64,000 nt of DNA from Candidatus Sulfotelmatobacter sp. (GTDB lineage Bacteria; Vulcanimicrobiota; Vulcanimicrobiia; Vulcanimicrobiales; Vulcanimicrobiaceae), in the NCBI GenBank assembly GCA_035504415.1, contig DATJRY010000017.1, forward strand, positions 62,001-126,000, read 5' to 3'. The notes beneath the pieces are model-generated. The model was not told where the DNA came from and searched no databases. It was given only the letters and a program-made list of their open reading frames with translations. Within the stretch, counting starts at the first letter, position 1. Each line of letters opens with the position of its first letter. The translations under genes were made by a program, and so were the position numbers. Shown here piece after piece: positions 12,159 through 24,005 of the stretch.

Positions 12159-14708
12159 ATGATGAACCACCGACTCGCGATCGCGGCGGCGCTGCTGGCC
12201 CTGCTGCCCGTGCAGAACGCTTCCGCCGCCGGCGTGCGCAGCGTGCGCGCCATTCGCGCCGCCGTGCCCGTCAGCTACGCGGCCCCGGCCGGCGACCTGC
12301 CCGTCGAGCATCTGCACGGCGCGACCTACGACGCGGTGCTGCCCTCGGGGCGGCTCGTCACGCCGGCCGGCACGAGCGTCGTCACGGGGATGAACGCGCT
12401 CGGCCTCGCGCTGAGTCCCGACGGCCGCTACGCGATCGTCTCGAACGACGACGAGCTCGACGGCGCGATGCACTCGCTGGTCGACCCGAACGCGACCGGC
12501 GGGTACGTGCTGGCGGTCGTCGATCTCGCGACGATGCAGGTCGTCAGCCGCTATCGCGCGCCCGGTGAGACGTACTGGAACGGCATCGCCGCGCTGGCGG
12601 ATCCGGCGCGTCCCGGCGGGACGCTCGTGCTCGCGTCGGGTGGGACCAGCGGCAGCGTGTACGTGTTTCGGCTCGACGCGAGCGGCGCGCTCACGCCCGA
12701 TCCGCGCCACGTCATCGCGCTGCCGGGGTCGAGCGACCCGGCCTTCGCCGCGCGCGGGCACGCCCTGGCGTCGACGCTGGCCGTCTCGGCCGACGGCAAG
12801 CGCGCGTACGTCGTCGACGACGCCGGCGACAGCATCAGCGCGATCGACACCGCGACGCGCCGGCTGAGCGGGTCGAGCTGGCCGGTCGGATTCTTCCCGT
12901 TCGGCGTCGCCCCGGCCGGCGACCAGCTGCTGGTCACCAACGAAGGACTGCTGCGTTACGGCGTGCTCGGCGCGCCGGTCAGCGCGCCGCCGTTCGCCCC
13001 GCCGGCGGCCGATCTCGATCGCGCTTCGTCCCTCTCGCTCTTGGCGCTCGGTGCGAACGGTGATCTGGGCGCGCCGGCGTCGCTGCCGATGGATCCCACG
13101 CCGGACGGGATCCGCACCGTCGGCGGCGCGCACCCGACCGCCGTCGTCGTCACGCCCGACGACACGCACGCGTACGTCGCGATGAGCGGCGTCGACCGTA
13201 TCGCGACGGTGGAGCTGGGTGCGAGCCCGCGCGTCGTCGGCGGCACCGAGCTGCGGCTGTTCGATCGCGGCCCGTACGGCACCGAACCGGCCGCGCTCGC
13301 GCTCTCGCGCGACGGTTCGCGCTTGTACGTCGCGCTGGCCGGACTCAACGCGGTCGCGGTGATCGACGCGCGCGACCCGGCGCACCTGCACCGCATGGGC
13401 TTGATCCCGACCGGCTGGTATCCGTCCGCGCTGGCGCTCGGCGCCGACGATCGCACCCTGTACGTGCTCAACACCAAAGGCTTCGGCAGCGACGCCGGCG
13501 CCGGCGCCGATCCCAACGCCGACGGCACCGCGGTGTGGTCGACGCTGGAGAAGATCGACCTGGGCGCGGTGCGCTTGACCAGCGCGACGCAGAACGCGCT
13601 GGGCAACACGCGCCGCGTCGTCGCCGCGCGCGCGATGGTGCCGCCCGGCCTGCGAGACGTCGTCGTCATCGAACAAGCGGGCAAAGGCTTCGACGCGATG
13701 CTCGGCGATCTGGGCGCACCGGCCGGCGATCCGTCACTGGTGCAGTACGGCGAAGCGGTGACGCCCAACTTGCACGCGCTGGCCCGGCGCTACGCGCTCG
13801 CGACGAACTTCTTCGCCGACGACGCGATCGGGGCGGGCAATCAGCAATTCCTCACCGCGGGCACCGCCTCGCTGTTCGCCGAACGGCTGCTGCGCGCTCG
13901 CGCCGGGCGGGACGGCCTCGGCACCGCCGCGCAAGATCCCGAAGATTGGCCGCGCCTCGGATCGATCTTCGATTCGCTCGCGCGTCACCGCATGTCGTAT
14001 CGCGACTACGGCGACCTGCTCACCGTCGCCGGCTACGACGACGGCCGCGCCGCCGATCCGCGCGCCGACGATCCGTACTATGCCGGACCGGCCGACACCA
14101 GCGCGCCGACGCAAGGGCTGGGCGGACTCTACGCGCAGAACGTCCCCGCGCCGGCCGCGCTGGCCGATCACGTCGACCTGCAATACCCCGGTTGGAACCC
14201 GCGCATCCGCGACGAGCGGCGCGCCCAAGAGTTCATCCGCGACTACTCGACGCTCGTCGCCTCCGGCCGCGAGCCGCGCTACGTCCACCTTTGGCTGCCG
14301 GCCGACGCGGCGGTGACCGTTCCCGGCGCGCCGCCACCGGCCGAGCAAGTCGCCGACGGCGACCGCGCGCTGGGCGAGATCGTCGCCTACTTGAGCCACC
14401 TGCGCTCGTGGCGCCACACCGCGATCATCATCGTCGGCGGCGACGCGCCGGGCTCGCACGACCACGTCGACGCGACGCGCAGCTACGCCGTCGTCGTCTC
14501 GCCGTTCGCCAAGCGCCACGCGTTGGACGCGCGGCATCTCTCGACCGCCAGCGTGCTCAAGACGGCGGAAGAGGCGCTGCACGTGGGCACGCTCTCGCTG
14601 GGCGACCTGCTCGCCACCGACCTCACCGAATGCCTCACCGCGCACGGCGGCGACGAGGCGCCCTACGTCGCCCTGCCCGTCCCGGAGCAAGCCGCGGCGA
14701 GCCGATGA
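12159..14708 (+). CDS. Secreted bifunctional YncE-like beta-propeller / alkaline-phosphatase-superfamily protein
   Basis: This 849-residue exported protein has an N-terminal signal peptide (residues 1-25, ending NASAAG). About residues 40-440 are YVTN/YncE-type propeller repeats (LALSPDGRYAIV, LALSRDGSRLYVAL, LALGADDRTLYVLN). The C-terminal domain (from about 490) belongs to the phosphoesterase/alkaline-phosphatase superfamily, with a VVVIEQAGKGFDAMLGD entry, a VTPNLHALA block and a GDAPGSHDHVDATRSY block rich in metal-ligand-type Asp and His. ATG 12159 and ATG 12162 are both possible next to the AAGGGG element; the difference is one residue. The substrate is unknown. The next gene overlaps by 4 bases. 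Confidence 0.82.
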   Translation: MMNHRLAIAAALLALLPVQNASAAGVRSVRAIRAAVPVSYAAPAGDLPVEHLHGATYDAVLPSGRLVTPAGTSVVTGMNALGLALSPDGRYAIVSNDDELDGAMHSLVDPNATGGYVLAVVDLATMQVVSRYRAPGETYWNGIAALADPARPGGTLVLASGGTSGSVYVFRLDASGALTPDPRHVIALPGSSDPAFAARGHALASTLAVSADGKRAYVVDDAGDSISAIDTATRRLSGSSWPVGFFPFGVAPAGDQLLVTNEGLLRYGVLGAPVSAPPFAPPAADLDRASSLSLLALGANGDLGAPASLPMDPTPDGIRTVGGAHPTAVVVTPDDTHAYVAMSGVDRIATVELGASPRVVGGTELRLFDRGPYGTEPAALALSRDGSRLYVALAGLNAVAVIDARDPAHLHRMGLIPTGWYPSALALGADDRTLYVLNTKGFGSDAGAGADPNADGTAVWSTLEKIDLGAVRLTSATQNALGNTRRVVAARAMVPPGLRDVVVIEQAGKGFDAMLGDLGAPAGDPSLVQYGEAVTPNLHALARRYALATNFFADDAIGAGNQQFLTAGTASLFAERLLRARAGRDGLGTAAQDPEDWPRLGSIFDSLARHRMSYRDYGDLLTVAGYDDGRAADPRADDPYYAGPADTSAPTQGLGGLYAQNVPAPAALADHVDLQYPGWNPRIRDERRAQEFIRDYSTLVASGREPRYVHLWLPADAAVTVPGAPPPAEQVADGDRALGEIVAYLSHLRSWRHTAIIIVGGDAPGSHDHVDATRSYAVVVSPFAKRHALDARHLSTASVLKTAEEALHVGTLSLGDLLATDLTECLTAHGGDEAPYVALPVPEQAAASR

Positions 14709-17556: not shown

Positions 17557-18402
17557 GTGACCGTGAAGTCCTACGCCGCTCCGTTCGTCTCGTCCGACGC
17601 GGGGACGCTGATCGCCGCCGCCCTGGTGCGCCCCACCGCCGCCGTCGACCAGCTGCCGCCGCGCCCCGGCGAGCCCTCGCCGATCGCCGACCGGGCGATC
17701 GAGCAGCACGCGATCCTGGTCGGAACCCTGCGCGACCGCGGCGTCGACGTGCGCGTCCTCGAGCCGCGCACCGGCGCCCCGACCGAGTCGTTGCTGGGAG
17801 ACGGAGCCGTCTTGCTGCCGGACGGCGCCGTCCTGACCCGGCCACCGCAAATCGACCGGCGGGCCGAGGCGGCCAATCTCGAGACGCTGCTGGGCGAGCT
17901 CGGGATCCCCGTCATCGGCCGCGTCGAGGCGCCGGGTCTGCTCGACGGCAGCGACGTCGCGCTGGCGGCGGGCCGCGCGTTCATCGGTGTCTCGGCCGGG
18001 ACCGGACTGCAGCCGCGCTCGAACGCGCTGGGGCGGCGCCAGTTCGAGGCGATCGCGAAACAGCAGGGCTTCGAGACGGTCGAGTTGCCGGTCGCCGCCG
18101 ACGTCTGCCGGTTGCGCGACGTCTTCTCGGTCATCGCGAGCGATACGGTCGTCGCCGCGCCGAACAAGGTCGACTTGGTGCCGGCGCAGGGACTGAAGGT
18201 CGTCGAGCTGCCGCGCGGCGAGGAGATGGCGGCCGGCGTCGTCGTGCTCGGCGAGCGGCGCGTGCTGGCGAACTTGCGCTTCCGCGAGTCGATCGCGCTG
18301 CTGCGCAAAGCCAAGGTCACCGTCGAGGCGATCGACTTGTGGGAGTTCGGCAAAGCCGGCTTCGCGCCGCCGTCGCTCGTGCTCGCGCTCAAACGCGGAT
18401 AA
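17557..18402 (+). CDS. Pentein-fold protein related to dimethylarginine dimethylaminohydrolase, apparently lacking catalytic residues
   Basis: This 281-residue protein has the alpha/beta-propeller repeats of guanidino-modifying enzymes: an LLGDGAVLLPDGAVL segment near 79-93, GLLDGSDV at 127-134 (substrate aspartates) and FIGVSAGTGLQPRSN at 142-156. In DDAH the catalytic His sits in a LHLK-type motif after the 'LPV' strand. Here the equivalent reads VCRLRD, with Cys184 in its place. The C-terminal nucleophilic Cys is also absent: KAGFAPPSLVLAL (266-278) has Pro/Ser there. It may be a binding protein or have altered chemistry. GTG 17557 is chosen; GTG 17563 is also possible. Confidence 0.75.
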   Translation: MTVKSYAAPFVSSDAGTLIAAALVRPTAAVDQLPPRPGEPSPIADRAIEQHAILVGTLRDRGVDVRVLEPRTGAPTESLLGDGAVLLPDGAVLTRPPQIDRRAEAANLETLLGELGIPVIGRVEAPGLLDGSDVALAAGRAFIGVSAGTGLQPRSNALGRRQFEAIAKQQGFETVELPVAADVCRLRDVFSVIASDTVVAAPNKVDLVPAQGLKVVELPRGEEMAAGVVVLGERRVLANLRFRESIALLRKAKVTVEAIDLWEFGKAGFAPPSLVLALKRG

Positions 18403-18412
18403 GGCGCCCGCC

Positions 18413-19150
18413 GTGCGTGTCGCGATCCTCTCCGACATCCACGGCAACGCGCACGCGCTGCGGCGCTGCCTGGCCGATCTCGCCGAGCGCGGCGGCGCCG
18501 ACGTCGTCGTCGCGGCGGGCGACCTGTGCGTCGACGGCCCCAAACCGCGGCGCGTGCTCGAGCTGCTGGAGAAGGCCGGCGCGCAAGCGCTGCGCGGCAA
18601 CACCGATCGCATGGTGGGCGCGGAAGACGCCGACACGCTCGATCCCGAGGACGCGCGCGCGGTGAGCTGGACGCGCGAGCAGATCGGCGAGGATTGGACG
18701 CGCTGGCTGGGCGCGCTGCCGGCGACGATCGCGCTCGGCGACGGGGAGGACGGCCTGCTCGTCTGTCATGCCAATCCGAAGAACGACGACGAGCACGTGT
18801 GGCCCGACGCGCCGGATGCGCAGCTCGAGCGGCTCTTCGACGACGTCCCGCAGCGCGCCATCGCGTTCGGGCACCTGCACCTTTCCTATGTGCGCGTGTG
18901 GCGCGGCCGCATGCTGGTCAACGTCGCCTCCGCGGGTCTGCCCAAGGACGGCGATCCGCTCGCACACTACGCGCTGCTCACCCAGCGGCCGGGCGGCTGG
19001 GAGATCCAGTCGCGGCGCGTCCGCTTCGACGCCGAAAAGGTCGCTCGCCAGCTCGAAGCGAGCGGCATCCCCGACCTCGACAAGCGGCTCACGACGCTGC
19101 GGCGTCACCGGTATCCGAAGCTCGGCGAGGTGGGTTGTGTGATCCCGTGA
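18413..19150 (+). CDS. Calcineurin-like metallophosphoesterase (YfcE/MJ0936-type)
   Basis: This 245-residue protein carries the metallophosphoesterase motifs in order: SDIHGN (residues 7-12), AGDLCVDGP (about 39-47), GNTD where most members have GNHD, VCHANP and GHLHL. It should bind two metals and hydrolyse phosphomonoesters or diesters; the substrate is unknown. It lies 10 bases after the pentein gene and overlaps the ABC ATPase gene by 4 bases (GTGA), so this run of four genes may be one transcript. Confidence 0.88.
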   Translation: MRVAILSDIHGNAHALRRCLADLAERGGADVVVAAGDLCVDGPKPRRVLELLEKAGAQALRGNTDRMVGAEDADTLDPEDARAVSWTREQIGEDWTRWLGALPATIALGDGEDGLLVCHANPKNDDEHVWPDAPDAQLERLFDDVPQRAIAFGHLHLSYVRVWRGRMLVNVASAGLPKDGDPLAHYALLTQRPGGWEIQSRRVRFDAEKVARQLEASGIPDLDKRLTTLRRHRYPKLGEVGCVIP

Positions 19151-19872
19151 CGCCACGGCCACCCGCCCTCCGAATCGACCAGCTCGTCAAACGCTATGGG
19201 GATTTCACCGCCGTCGACGGCATCTCGCTCGAGGTGCAAGAGGGCGAGTTCTTCGGCTTGCTCGGCCCCAACGGCGCGGGCAAGACCACCACGATCAACG
19301 CGATCGTCGGCCTGGCCGGCATCACCAGCGGCGCGATCGCCCTGTTCGGCCACGACGTCGTGCGCGATTGGCGCGCCGCGCGCCGCCAAGTCGGTTTGGC
19401 GCCGCAAGAGTACAACTTCGACCGCTACCTCAACATCCGCGACGTGCTGATCTTCCAAGCCGGATACTACGGCTTGCGCGGCCCGGCGGTCGCCAAGCGG
19501 GCCGACGTGCTGCTCGAGCGCTTCGGCCTGTCCTCCAAGGCCAAGCAGGTCTACACGCGCCTCTCGGGCGGGATGAAGCGGCGGCTGAGCTTGGCGCGGG
19601 CCCTCATCCACGAGCCGCGGCTGGTCATCCTGGACGAGCCGACGGCCGGCGTCGACGTCGAGCTGCGGCTCGAGCTGTGGTCGCTCTTGCGCGAGCTGAA
19701 CACCAACGGCACCACCATCATCTTGACCACGCACTACCTCGAAGAGGCCGAAGAGCTCTGCGACCGGATCGGGATCATCCAGACCGGCAAGCTGATCGCG
19801 CTCGAGCGGACGAAGAAGCTCATCGGTGAGGGCTCGCTGCAGGACGTCTTCTTGGAGCTGACCCGTCAATGA
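19147..19872 (+). CDS. ABC transporter ATP-binding protein (DrrA/ABC-2 exporter type)
   Basis: This 241-residue ATPase has Walker A GPNGAGKTT (about 43-51), the LSGGMKRR signature, Walker B LVILDEPTAGVD, and the switch His in TTHYLEE. It is coupled by an ATGA overlap to the ABC-2 permease gene, so the two form a complete export or resistance transporter. The substrate is unknown; drug, polysaccharide and lipid exporters share this architecture. Confidence 0.93.
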   Translation: MTPRPPALRIDQLVKRYGDFTAVDGISLEVQEGEFFGLLGPNGAGKTTTINAIVGLAGITSGAIALFGHDVVRDWRAARRQVGLAPQEYNFDRYLNIRDVLIFQAGYYGLRGPAVAKRADVLLERFGLSSKAKQVYTRLSGGMKRRLSLARALIHEPRLVILDEPTAGVDVELRLELWSLLRELNTNGTTIILTTHYLEEAEELCDRIGIIQTGKLIALERTKKLIGEGSLQDVFLELTRQ

Positions 19873-22382: not shown

Positions 22383-24005
22383 ATGACACGTCTGGTCCGG
22401 TTCGCGTTCCCCGCCGTCTTGGCGTTGGCCGCCCTCGCTCCGGGGTCGGCGGCGCCGCTCCCGGGTCCGGTCGTGGGCCAGCCCGCGCCCAATTTCTCCC
22501 TCACGACCATCGACGGCAAGCACGTTCGGCTGAGCGACTATCGCGGCCGCACGCTGGTCATCAACGTCTGGGGCTCGTGGTGCCCGCCGTGCCGGCTCGA
22601 GACGCCCGACTTGGTCGCCGAGGCGAAGGCGCAGGCGCGCCACGGCGTCGCGTTCTTGGGCGTCGACACGACCGAGTCGCCGTCGGTGGTGCGCGCGTTC
22701 TCGATCGCCAAGGCGATTCCGTATCCGCAGGTCGCGACGAGCGGGACCAGCGCCTTCGCGCGCGACTACGCGATTCGCAACTACCCGACCACGTTCGTCA
22801 TCGACCCGAGCGGCGTGCTGCGCGCGCGCCACGCCGACAACCTCTTGCCGCGCCCGCAGCTGCACGCGTACATCGTCGCGGCGCAGCACGGCGCGACCGC
22901 GCCGCTGAAGACCGCCTTCCAGACGCAGCTCGACGCGATGCTGGCACCGGCGCGGTACACGTTCACCGGTGATCCGGCGACGGTGTTGGCGAACGTGCAG
23001 CAGGCAGTCTCGGCGATCGGCAAGGTCGACGACCTGCTCGACGACGCGATGGACGACCCCTCGCGCGACCACGACTTGATCGCGACCCAGCAAGAGGAAG
23101 AGACGCTGCGCGCCGCCGCCATCGCCGCGTTGACGCCAATCGCGACCGGCGATCCGCAGCTGGCGCTGCTGGCACGGTTGCACGGCGACGAAGACGCCGC
23201 GCTCGGCAAATGGAGCGACGCGAAGAGCGCCTACGAAGACGCGCTCACGAAGGTGCCGAACGATCTCGACGCGCTGAGCGGCCTCGCCGACGCCGAAGGC
23301 CAGTTGGGTGACGCGGCGCGGGTGGTCGCCCTCGATCAGCAGATCGCGCAGCTCCACCCCACCCGCGCGACCTACGTCGCCCTGGCGCGCGCGCAGATCA
23401 AAACCGGCGACGTCGCCGGCGGCGAGGCGTCGTTCGCGCACGCGATCGAGCTCGCGGCCGCCGAGCCGCCGCCCAACGCCGCGCAGATCGCGTGGACGGC
23501 GCTGTACGCCGGACAAGCCGAGGCGGACCTCGGTCGCGCCGCCAGCGCGCGCGCCTTTTTCGCCCGCGCGCTGGTCGAGGCCGAGCGCGTCGCGCCAACC
23601 GATCCGCGCCGCGAGTGGTACATCGAGCGCGCGCAGGAGGGGACGGTCGCGCTCGGCGTCGTCCCGGGTGCCGCGCCGGCGCTCTCGCTGGCGCCCTGGA
23701 CGGGACCCGATCTGCCCGGCTCGTTGGCGAGCACGATCAAGTACCGCCTGGTCGTGACCGGCAAGCCGGGCACCGCCGTCGATCTCGCGACCCAGGGCTT
23801 GCCGAAGCGGTGGATCGGTTCGTTCTGCACCGACCGCGTCTGCTCGCCGTTCCGCGTCTCGGTGGTCGTGCCGCCGGTCGGTGCGAAGATCATCGAGTTC
23901 CAGGTCGTGCCGCAGAGCGCGGTGCACGCGCCGCCGACGGTGTCGATCCAAGCCAGCGTAGGGAATCGTCCCGTCGCGCGCGTCGGCACAACGGTGCGGA
24001 CCTGA
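22383..24005 (+). CDS. Exported TlpA-like thioredoxin domain / TPR protein, copy A
   Basis: This 540-residue protein has a signal peptide (1-25), a TlpA/ResA-like thioredoxin domain (about 30-170) with redox motif WCPPC (Cys67, Cys70) and the cis-Pro region YPTTF, a tetratricopeptide-like helical region (about 230-410), and a C-terminal beta domain (about 430-540). That last domain contains SFCTDRVCSPFR with Cys482 and Cys487. The thioredoxin domain predicts extracytoplasmic disulfide reduction, as in cytochrome c or copper-site maturation. The fusion order is unusual. It lies 45 bases after the tyrosinase and directly before a full-length paralogue. Confidence 0.82.
   Translation: MTRLVRFAFPAVLALAALAPGSAAPLPGPVVGQPAPNFSLTTIDGKHVRLSDYRGRTLVINVWGSWCPPCRLETPDLVAEAKAQARHGVAFLGVDTTESPSVVRAFSIAKAIPYPQVATSGTSAFARDYAIRNYPTTFVIDPSGVLRARHADNLLPRPQLHAYIVAAQHGATAPLKTAFQTQLDAMLAPARYTFTGDPATVLANVQQAVSAIGKVDDLLDDAMDDPSRDHDLIATQQEEETLRAAAIAALTPIATGDPQLALLARLHGDEDAALGKWSDAKSAYEDALTKVPNDLDALSGLADAEGQLGDAARVVALDQQIAQLHPTRATYVALARAQIKTGDVAGGEASFAHAIELAAAEPPPNAAQIAWTALYAGQAEADLGRAASARAFFARALVEAERVAPTDPRREWYIERAQEGTVALGVVPGAAPALSLAPWTGPDLPGSLASTIKYRLVVTGKPGTAVDLATQGLPKRWIGSFCTDRVCSPFRVSVVVPPVGAKIIEFQVVPQSAVHAPPTVSIQASVGNRPVARVGTTVRT

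Follow-up and report, generated by a model that had tools for sequence, protein, structure and literature searches.

An ancient DDAH-derived pentein, almost certainly a pseudoenzyme, spread through an order of Candidatus Eremiobacterota

The window analysed here, by which we mean the whole stretch of 64,000 nucleotides, carries at 17557..18402 of the forward strand a gene with a GTG start that encodes a 281 amino acid pentein with the fold of DDAH, without either the catalytic Cys or the catalytic His. Judged from the alignment of its orthologues, the protein is near certain to be an ancient, DDAH-derived pseudoenzyme found throughout one order of Candidatus Eremiobacterota, soil bacteria that have seldom been brought into culture. 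Two families of this order enter into the analysis: that of the window genome itself (f1) and a sister family (f2), the sole other family of the order searched. With the residues that it now has, the thiol (Cys-His-Asp) amidinohydrolase reaction would be impossible for the window protein; we think it probable, with clear reservations, that the pseudoenzyme has been re-purposed as a binding or scaffolding module that serves its gene row and is not an amidinohydrolase.

Results

The window protein has a DDAH fold

When the window pentein alone was compared with solved structures, the top match was the DDAH (dimethylargininase) of P. aeruginosa (PaDDAH, our reference for column numbering), with E 1.4e-15; a profile built from 31 orthologues matched DDAH at E 5.3e-40 over nearly the whole chain. 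An AlphaFold2 model of the window protein (mean pLDDT 82.9, pTM 0.81) has as its best structural matches the PaDDAH entries 3bpb, 1h70 and 3rhy (Z 32, rmsd ~2.0, ~250 residues), and Foldseek also puts PaDDAH entries first for this model. The fold is that of a five-bladed pentein, colinear with DDAH, and in the structure alignment the window protein is ~23% identical to PaDDAH. Against the NCBIfam dimethylargininase model NF045660 the protein scores 86.6 bits and does not reach the cut-off of 340, a strict limit given that none of the 99 f1 genomes has any match over it, canonical DDAH copies included. The matches to DDAH structures, together with the order-wide conservation described below, exclude a chance origin of the pattern.

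The catalytic Cys and His are replaced

DDAH has a Cys-His-Glu/Asp catalytic triad, as set out in the cited parts of two reports (PMC9980740, PMC10256801). In mammalian DDAH the acidic residue is Asp where PaDDAH has Glu114. The other two columns are marked by the titles of PaDDAH entries, 1h70 being C249S with citrulline and 3bpb an H162G adduct. In the ORF translation of the window pentein the corresponding motifs read DGSD (residues 130-133; 17944..17955, forward strand, aligned to PaDDAH Glu114 to Asp117), VCRLRD (183-188) and GFAPPS (268-273). Arg185 (codon 18109..18111, forward strand) stands at the His162 column and Ser273 (codon 18373..18375, forward strand) at that of the nucleophile Cys249, which bears out the preliminary description of this protein as DDAH-like with both catalytic residues replaced. 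The third triad residue is Asp130, at the Glu114 column, which is Asp in 85 of 97 f1 copies and in all four from f2; the Asp117 column is occupied by Asp133.

The replacement extends well beyond the window genome. At the His column the 97 f1 copies have Ser (47), Arg (28), Ala (20), Cys (1) and Pro (1), and thus never His, while all four f2 copies have kept it. Cys is absent from the nucleophile column in each of the 96 readable f1 copies, where Met (40) and Ser (30) are most frequent and ten other residues share the remaining 26, and also in f2, where all four copies have Ala. Contig ends have removed the C-terminus of one f1 copy (G074) and the N-terminus of another (G114), and the Cys, Arg241 and Glu39 columns are each counted over 96 rows. 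When the 281 columns are ranked by conservation in f1, the Cys column comes 249th and the His column 120th; this poor ranking argues that nothing has replaced these residues in function.

The single-sequence alignment to the PDB ends before Cys249 and was redone with a profile extending beyond that residue. Ser273 falls at the nucleophile column in the profile, the profile-profile and the multiple alignments with canonical DDAHs alike, and a misplaced C-terminal alignment was ruled out, as every longer alignment puts Ser273 there. Among the 101 f1 and f2 sequences, conservation of His, Cys, Ser, Thr or Lys stays below 90% at every column, and no alternative His/Cys pair is conserved elsewhere in the chain. 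The reading of a double loss has therefore withstood both a search for an intact pair at another place and a comparison with close homologues, none of which, within f1, has the canonical residues.

The former pocket has changed

For the substrate-binding positions we assumed a mapping of bovine onto PaDDAH residue numbers. PaDDAH Asp60, Phe63 and Glu65 are replaced in the window protein by Thr76, Leu79 and Gly81, and are retained in one, three and none of the 97 f1 copies respectively. Asp66, Arg85 and Arg132 are retained as Asp82, Arg101 and Arg154, with 79, 96 and 72 of the f1 copies doing likewise; Arg101 (codon 17857..17859, forward strand) is also Arg in all four f2 copies. The counterparts of Asp60, Asp66, Arg85 and Arg132 are given a substrate-binding role in the cited part of one report (PMC9980740). 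It had been stated that the substrate aspartates remain, and this is right for DGSD and Asp82 but not for Asp60, which is lost as are Phe63 and Glu65. The columns of PaDDAH Arg79, Asn134, Asp117 and Arg85 rank 2nd, 4th, 9th and 10th in f1 conservation.

A protein which has kept its pocket but not its catalysis could serve to sense or bind guanidino compounds that resemble arginine. Consistent with this, Asp66, Asp/Glu114, Asp117, Arg85 and Arg132 are found all together in 62 of the 97 f1 copies, and the Ser at the Cys column of the window protein is the residue present in citrulline-bound PaDDAH C249S (1h70, by its entry title). However, Asp60, Phe63 and Glu65 are gone almost throughout f1. 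Further residues that bind guanidinium or carboxylate are missing from 10 f1 genomes that form a clade, with Gln, Ser and Leu at the PaDDAH 66, 114 and 132 columns, and from all four f2 copies, which have lost Asp66 and Arg132. Furthermore RESC5, a trypanosome protein that has kept a comparable set of residues, fails to bind either citrulline or dimethylarginine according to the cited part of its description (PMC9980740). With the first three residues gone and both the ten-genome clade and f2 further reduced, a shared guanidino ligand throughout the clade would be unlikely, although part of the clade may bind one. Guanidino sensing, as envisaged in the preliminary description, is weakened in consequence, and we regard it as unlikely.

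Other residues have been gained. Glu39, in the loop before the first long helix (codon 17671..17673, forward strand), is present in all 96 readable f1 copies and all four f2 copies; the canonical relatives in the comparison have other residues there. Arg241 (codon 18277..18279, forward strand) is equally invariant over the 96 readable f1 copies and the four from f2, and each of the nine canonical rows has Gly there. Gly268 has been gained as an invariant residue in f1 and f2 together, and Arg160 in f1 (97/97). In the secondary structure of the model, Arg95, Arg154 and Arg241 each sit in the link from a strand to the helix after it, in separate parts of the chain, and from the fold they may face the central channel; Glu39 and Arg241, from their position before helices, may line it.

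It is conceivable that a different chemistry relies on the invariant Glu, Asp and Arg of this protein. An enzyme with a new, Cys/His-free mechanism that works through Glu39, Asp133, Asp260, Arg95, Arg101 and Arg241 would be in keeping with the finding that the family-specific invariant charged residues are common to exactly the clade that lacks the Cys. On the other hand, no Cys, Ser, Thr, His or Lys that might act as nucleophile or base is conserved to at least 90%, and the old nucleophile position is among the most variable, which leaves such an enzyme distinctly improbable.

The pentein is maintained across the order

In a phylum-wide profile search of 149 genomes, the orthologue turned up in 97 of 99 f1 genomes and in all four f2 genomes. 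Of the two f1 genomes without it, one (G022) has its row cut by a contig end, the ATPase match beginning at base 84 of the contig, and the other (G066) is 68% complete and also has no YadH match. No inner stop codon occurs in any f1 copy. In the tree, which took 34 of the 97 f1 rows, chosen for spread, f1 and f2 form one clade with support 100/99, and each of the two families is one clade in itself. The DDAH-branch relatives compared from outside f1 and f2 (the f3 genomes, G130-G133, G139 and second copies in G018, G092 and G112) keep both Cys and His. Since f2 has the His but not the Cys, and distant homologues have both, the Cys was probably lost first; on these sequences the simplest history is probably one in which it disappeared before f1 and f2 split, with the His lost afterwards in f1. 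A scan of the genome collection with the window protein, as a single-sequence query, reached only Eremiobacterota records, and plasmid matches to the pentein comprise 30 records at ~28% identity. Confinement of the clade to Eremiobacterota may hold, but cannot be asserted.

Within the genus, dN/dS of the pentein is ~0.27 (median of 55 pairs from 11 genomes), the neighbouring phosphoesterase gives 0.27 and the ABC ATPase 0.14 (10 of the 11 genomes); these are rough values, being simple Nei-Gojobori estimates at high synonymous divergence (median pS 0.43). The pentein gene is kept under purifying selection. Taken together, the new invariant residues, the ranked columns and a dN/dS equal to that of the next gene indicate a protein which is maintained with its constraints shifted, and which has not merely lost some of them. 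The suggestion that loss of both catalytic residues from an otherwise maintained protein reflects a kept, non-enzymatic role finds support at the sequence level in the f1-wide loss and the conservation that accompanies it.

It might be argued that the gene is decaying and is simply carried along in an otherwise useful operon, as its dN/dS exceeds that of the ABC ATPase and pocket residues drift in some clades. This is very improbable given its presence in almost every f1 genome with the reading frame intact, a dN/dS no different from that of the neighbouring phosphoesterase, the new invariant residues, and its retention in an f2 genome (G040) where the ABC genes are gone. A pseudogene or an assembly error was ruled out by the 97 of 99 genomes, the lack of inner stops and the dN/dS. 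Least credible of all is new or residual amidinohydrolase chemistry through Cys184, which adjoins the lost His, or through Ser273, which sits at the nucleophile column: at the Cys184 column 48 of the 97 f1 copies have Pro and 13 have Arg, and on this variability the new chemistry once proposed for that residue was rejected, while the Ser273 column varies as described above and the corresponding Cys to Ser change in PaDDAH abolishes ADMA breakdown, according to the cited part of one report (PMC10256801).

The pentein gene lies in a conserved row

Downstream of the pentein, on the same strand, are genes for a calcineurin-like (YfcE-type) metallophosphoesterase (18413..19150), an ABC-2 transporter ATPase of the DrrA/YadG type (19147..19872) and an ABC-2 permease of the YadH type (NF011648/PRK15066; 19869..20636). 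In the window these three begin 10 bases past the pentein stop codon and overlap by four bases each. The permease scores 234.6 bits against PRK15066 (NF011648) and so passes the cut-off of 225; we take PRK15066 to be the YadH family. The metallophosphoesterase follows the pentein in 92 of the 96 f1 genomes that could be tested, with a median gap of 12 nt, the ATPase in 89 of 90 and the permease in 68 of 68; f2 rows have no metallophosphoesterase, and three of the four have both ABC genes. A scan for promoters and terminators gave nothing above chance. Upstream of the pentein is a gene for a YVTN beta-propeller and phosphoesterase protein (12159..14708, forward strand), with further genes between the two in the window. 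Of the 92 f1 genomes testable for such a gene, 88 have it within 6 kb upstream and 64 within 200 nt; in all four f2 genomes it lies within 100 nt. Downstream of the permease there follow a gene for a tyrosinase-domain protein (Pfam PF00264; 20721-22337, forward strand) and, after it, one for an AhpC-TSA/thioredoxin and TPR protein (22383-24005).

The exceptions to this arrangement bear on how closely the pentein is tied to the transporter. The row of the f2 genome G040 (G040:C32) still has the pentein gene with the YVTN/phosphoesterase gene upstream of it but has no ABC genes, and the rest of that genome gave no strong YadH match; the gene after the pentein resembles the one which ends the row elsewhere. 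In f3 genomes, which belong to the same class, YadG/YadH-type ABC genes stand beside other genes with no pentein adjoining. A pentein without ABC genes in the one case, and ABC genes without a pentein in the other, make a strict tie to the transporter doubtful; gene order argues only weakly for it. The cited part of one report has E. coli YadG reducing fosfomycin accumulation (PMC11980398), and this was not counted as evidence for the Eremiobacterota genes.

Discussion

In the explanation that we favour, an ancestor that was a DDAH-like amidinohydrolase would have lost its Cys first and then, in f1, its His, leaving a propeller module that acts by binding instead of catalysis. The former active-site channel would keep Arg95, Arg101, Asp133 and Asn156 and would newly have Glu39 and Arg241; it may bind a protein or a small anionic ligand, and the module may assist or gate the neighbouring YadG/YadH-type exporter or the co-encoded phosphoesterases. 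What the partner and ligand would be, and in which direction regulation would run, can only be guessed from gene order. Counting against a binding module of this kind is the metallophosphoesterase itself, missing from four of the 96 testable f1 genomes as well as from the f2 rows. A bolder version, which we hold only tentatively and would call rather unlikely as a whole, is that within one order a DDAH-like enzyme was turned into an arginine-lined receptor for an anion or a protein that controls an ABC-2 exporter, the nucleophile disappearing while Glu39, Arg241 and Gly268 became fixed and the His later, with the sister family as the halfway state.

The closest solved double-loss pseudoenzyme is RESC5, which likewise has a DDAH fold, has lost both Cys and His, keeps several pocket Arg and Asp residues and is lineage-wide, as given in the cited parts of two reports (PMC9980740, PMC3820961). 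As in RESC5, the nucleophile Cys of the window pentein is replaced within an intact fold, and the His is replaced too throughout f1, though not in f2. From what these sources describe, RESC5 differs in being a kinetoplastid protein of the mitochondrial RNA editing complex, with Ala and Pro in place of Cys and His, whereas the gene of the bacterial clade stands in a row with a transporter, and the His persists in the sister family. Human DDAH2 is another DDAH paralogue whose nucleophile Cys is changed, to Leu or Ser, and which is without ADMA hydrolysis; it is an animal protein ~50% identical to active DDAH1, and in the cited part of the report only its nucleophile is described as replaced (PMC10256801). 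The pentein eIF6 is also non-catalytic and uses the fold for binding, as far as the cited text describes it (PMC3820961), but is a ribosome factor and is absent from the sequence matches listed for the window pentein. PaDDAH (3rhy, 3bpb, 1h70), the closest solved fold and colinear over almost the whole chain, is by contrast an active Cys249-His162-Glu114 enzyme; f1 and f2 lack this Cys, and f1 also the His.

Pentein-fold proteins of this kind are known from eukaryotes (RESC5 and DDAH2 as pseudoenzymes, eIF6 as non-catalytic), and the new part is a bacterial clade with a halfway sister family. No description of a bacterial DDAH pseudoenzyme was found in the open-access literature, subscription journals being outside the scope of that search. 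With some 100 genomes, canonical relatives, a sister family that has lost only the Cys, and a fixed row, the order of losses and gains becomes readable. There is also a warning here for annotation, as the fold points to the dimethylargininase/arginine deiminase family and the residues speak against such an activity.

Canonical DDAHs do occur in the phylum, in f3 and in the f1 genomes G018, G092 and G112. These share the fold, have HLK/HFK and GGLSC motifs, and would be expected from their residues to be active; unlike the window pentein they lie outside the ABC row, keep both catalytic residues and form a separate branch which groups with PaDDAH. That G018, G092 and G112 possess the pseudoenzyme alongside a canonical DDAH in which both Cys and His are present implies that the former is not a substitute for the latter.

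The window genome has a second pentein, outside the window (G000:C21:265809-266513), which is nearest to arginine dihydrolase (ArgZ) models and has Gly at the nucleophile. Of 24 rows aligned for this second pentein, two were left out, one being truncated at a contig end and the other belonging to a different clade; in the 22 readable relatives from f1 genomes Cys is missing in five (Gly 1, Ser 3, Arg 1) and His is present in all 22. By alignment, loss of the nucleophile with the His kept is thus seen a second time in Eremiobacterota, as a repeated erosion. In G018, G092 and G112 (G018:C4, G092:C37, G112:C16) the canonical DDAH adjoins, convergently, a second pentein, GGSVFC in type, that also has a Cys.
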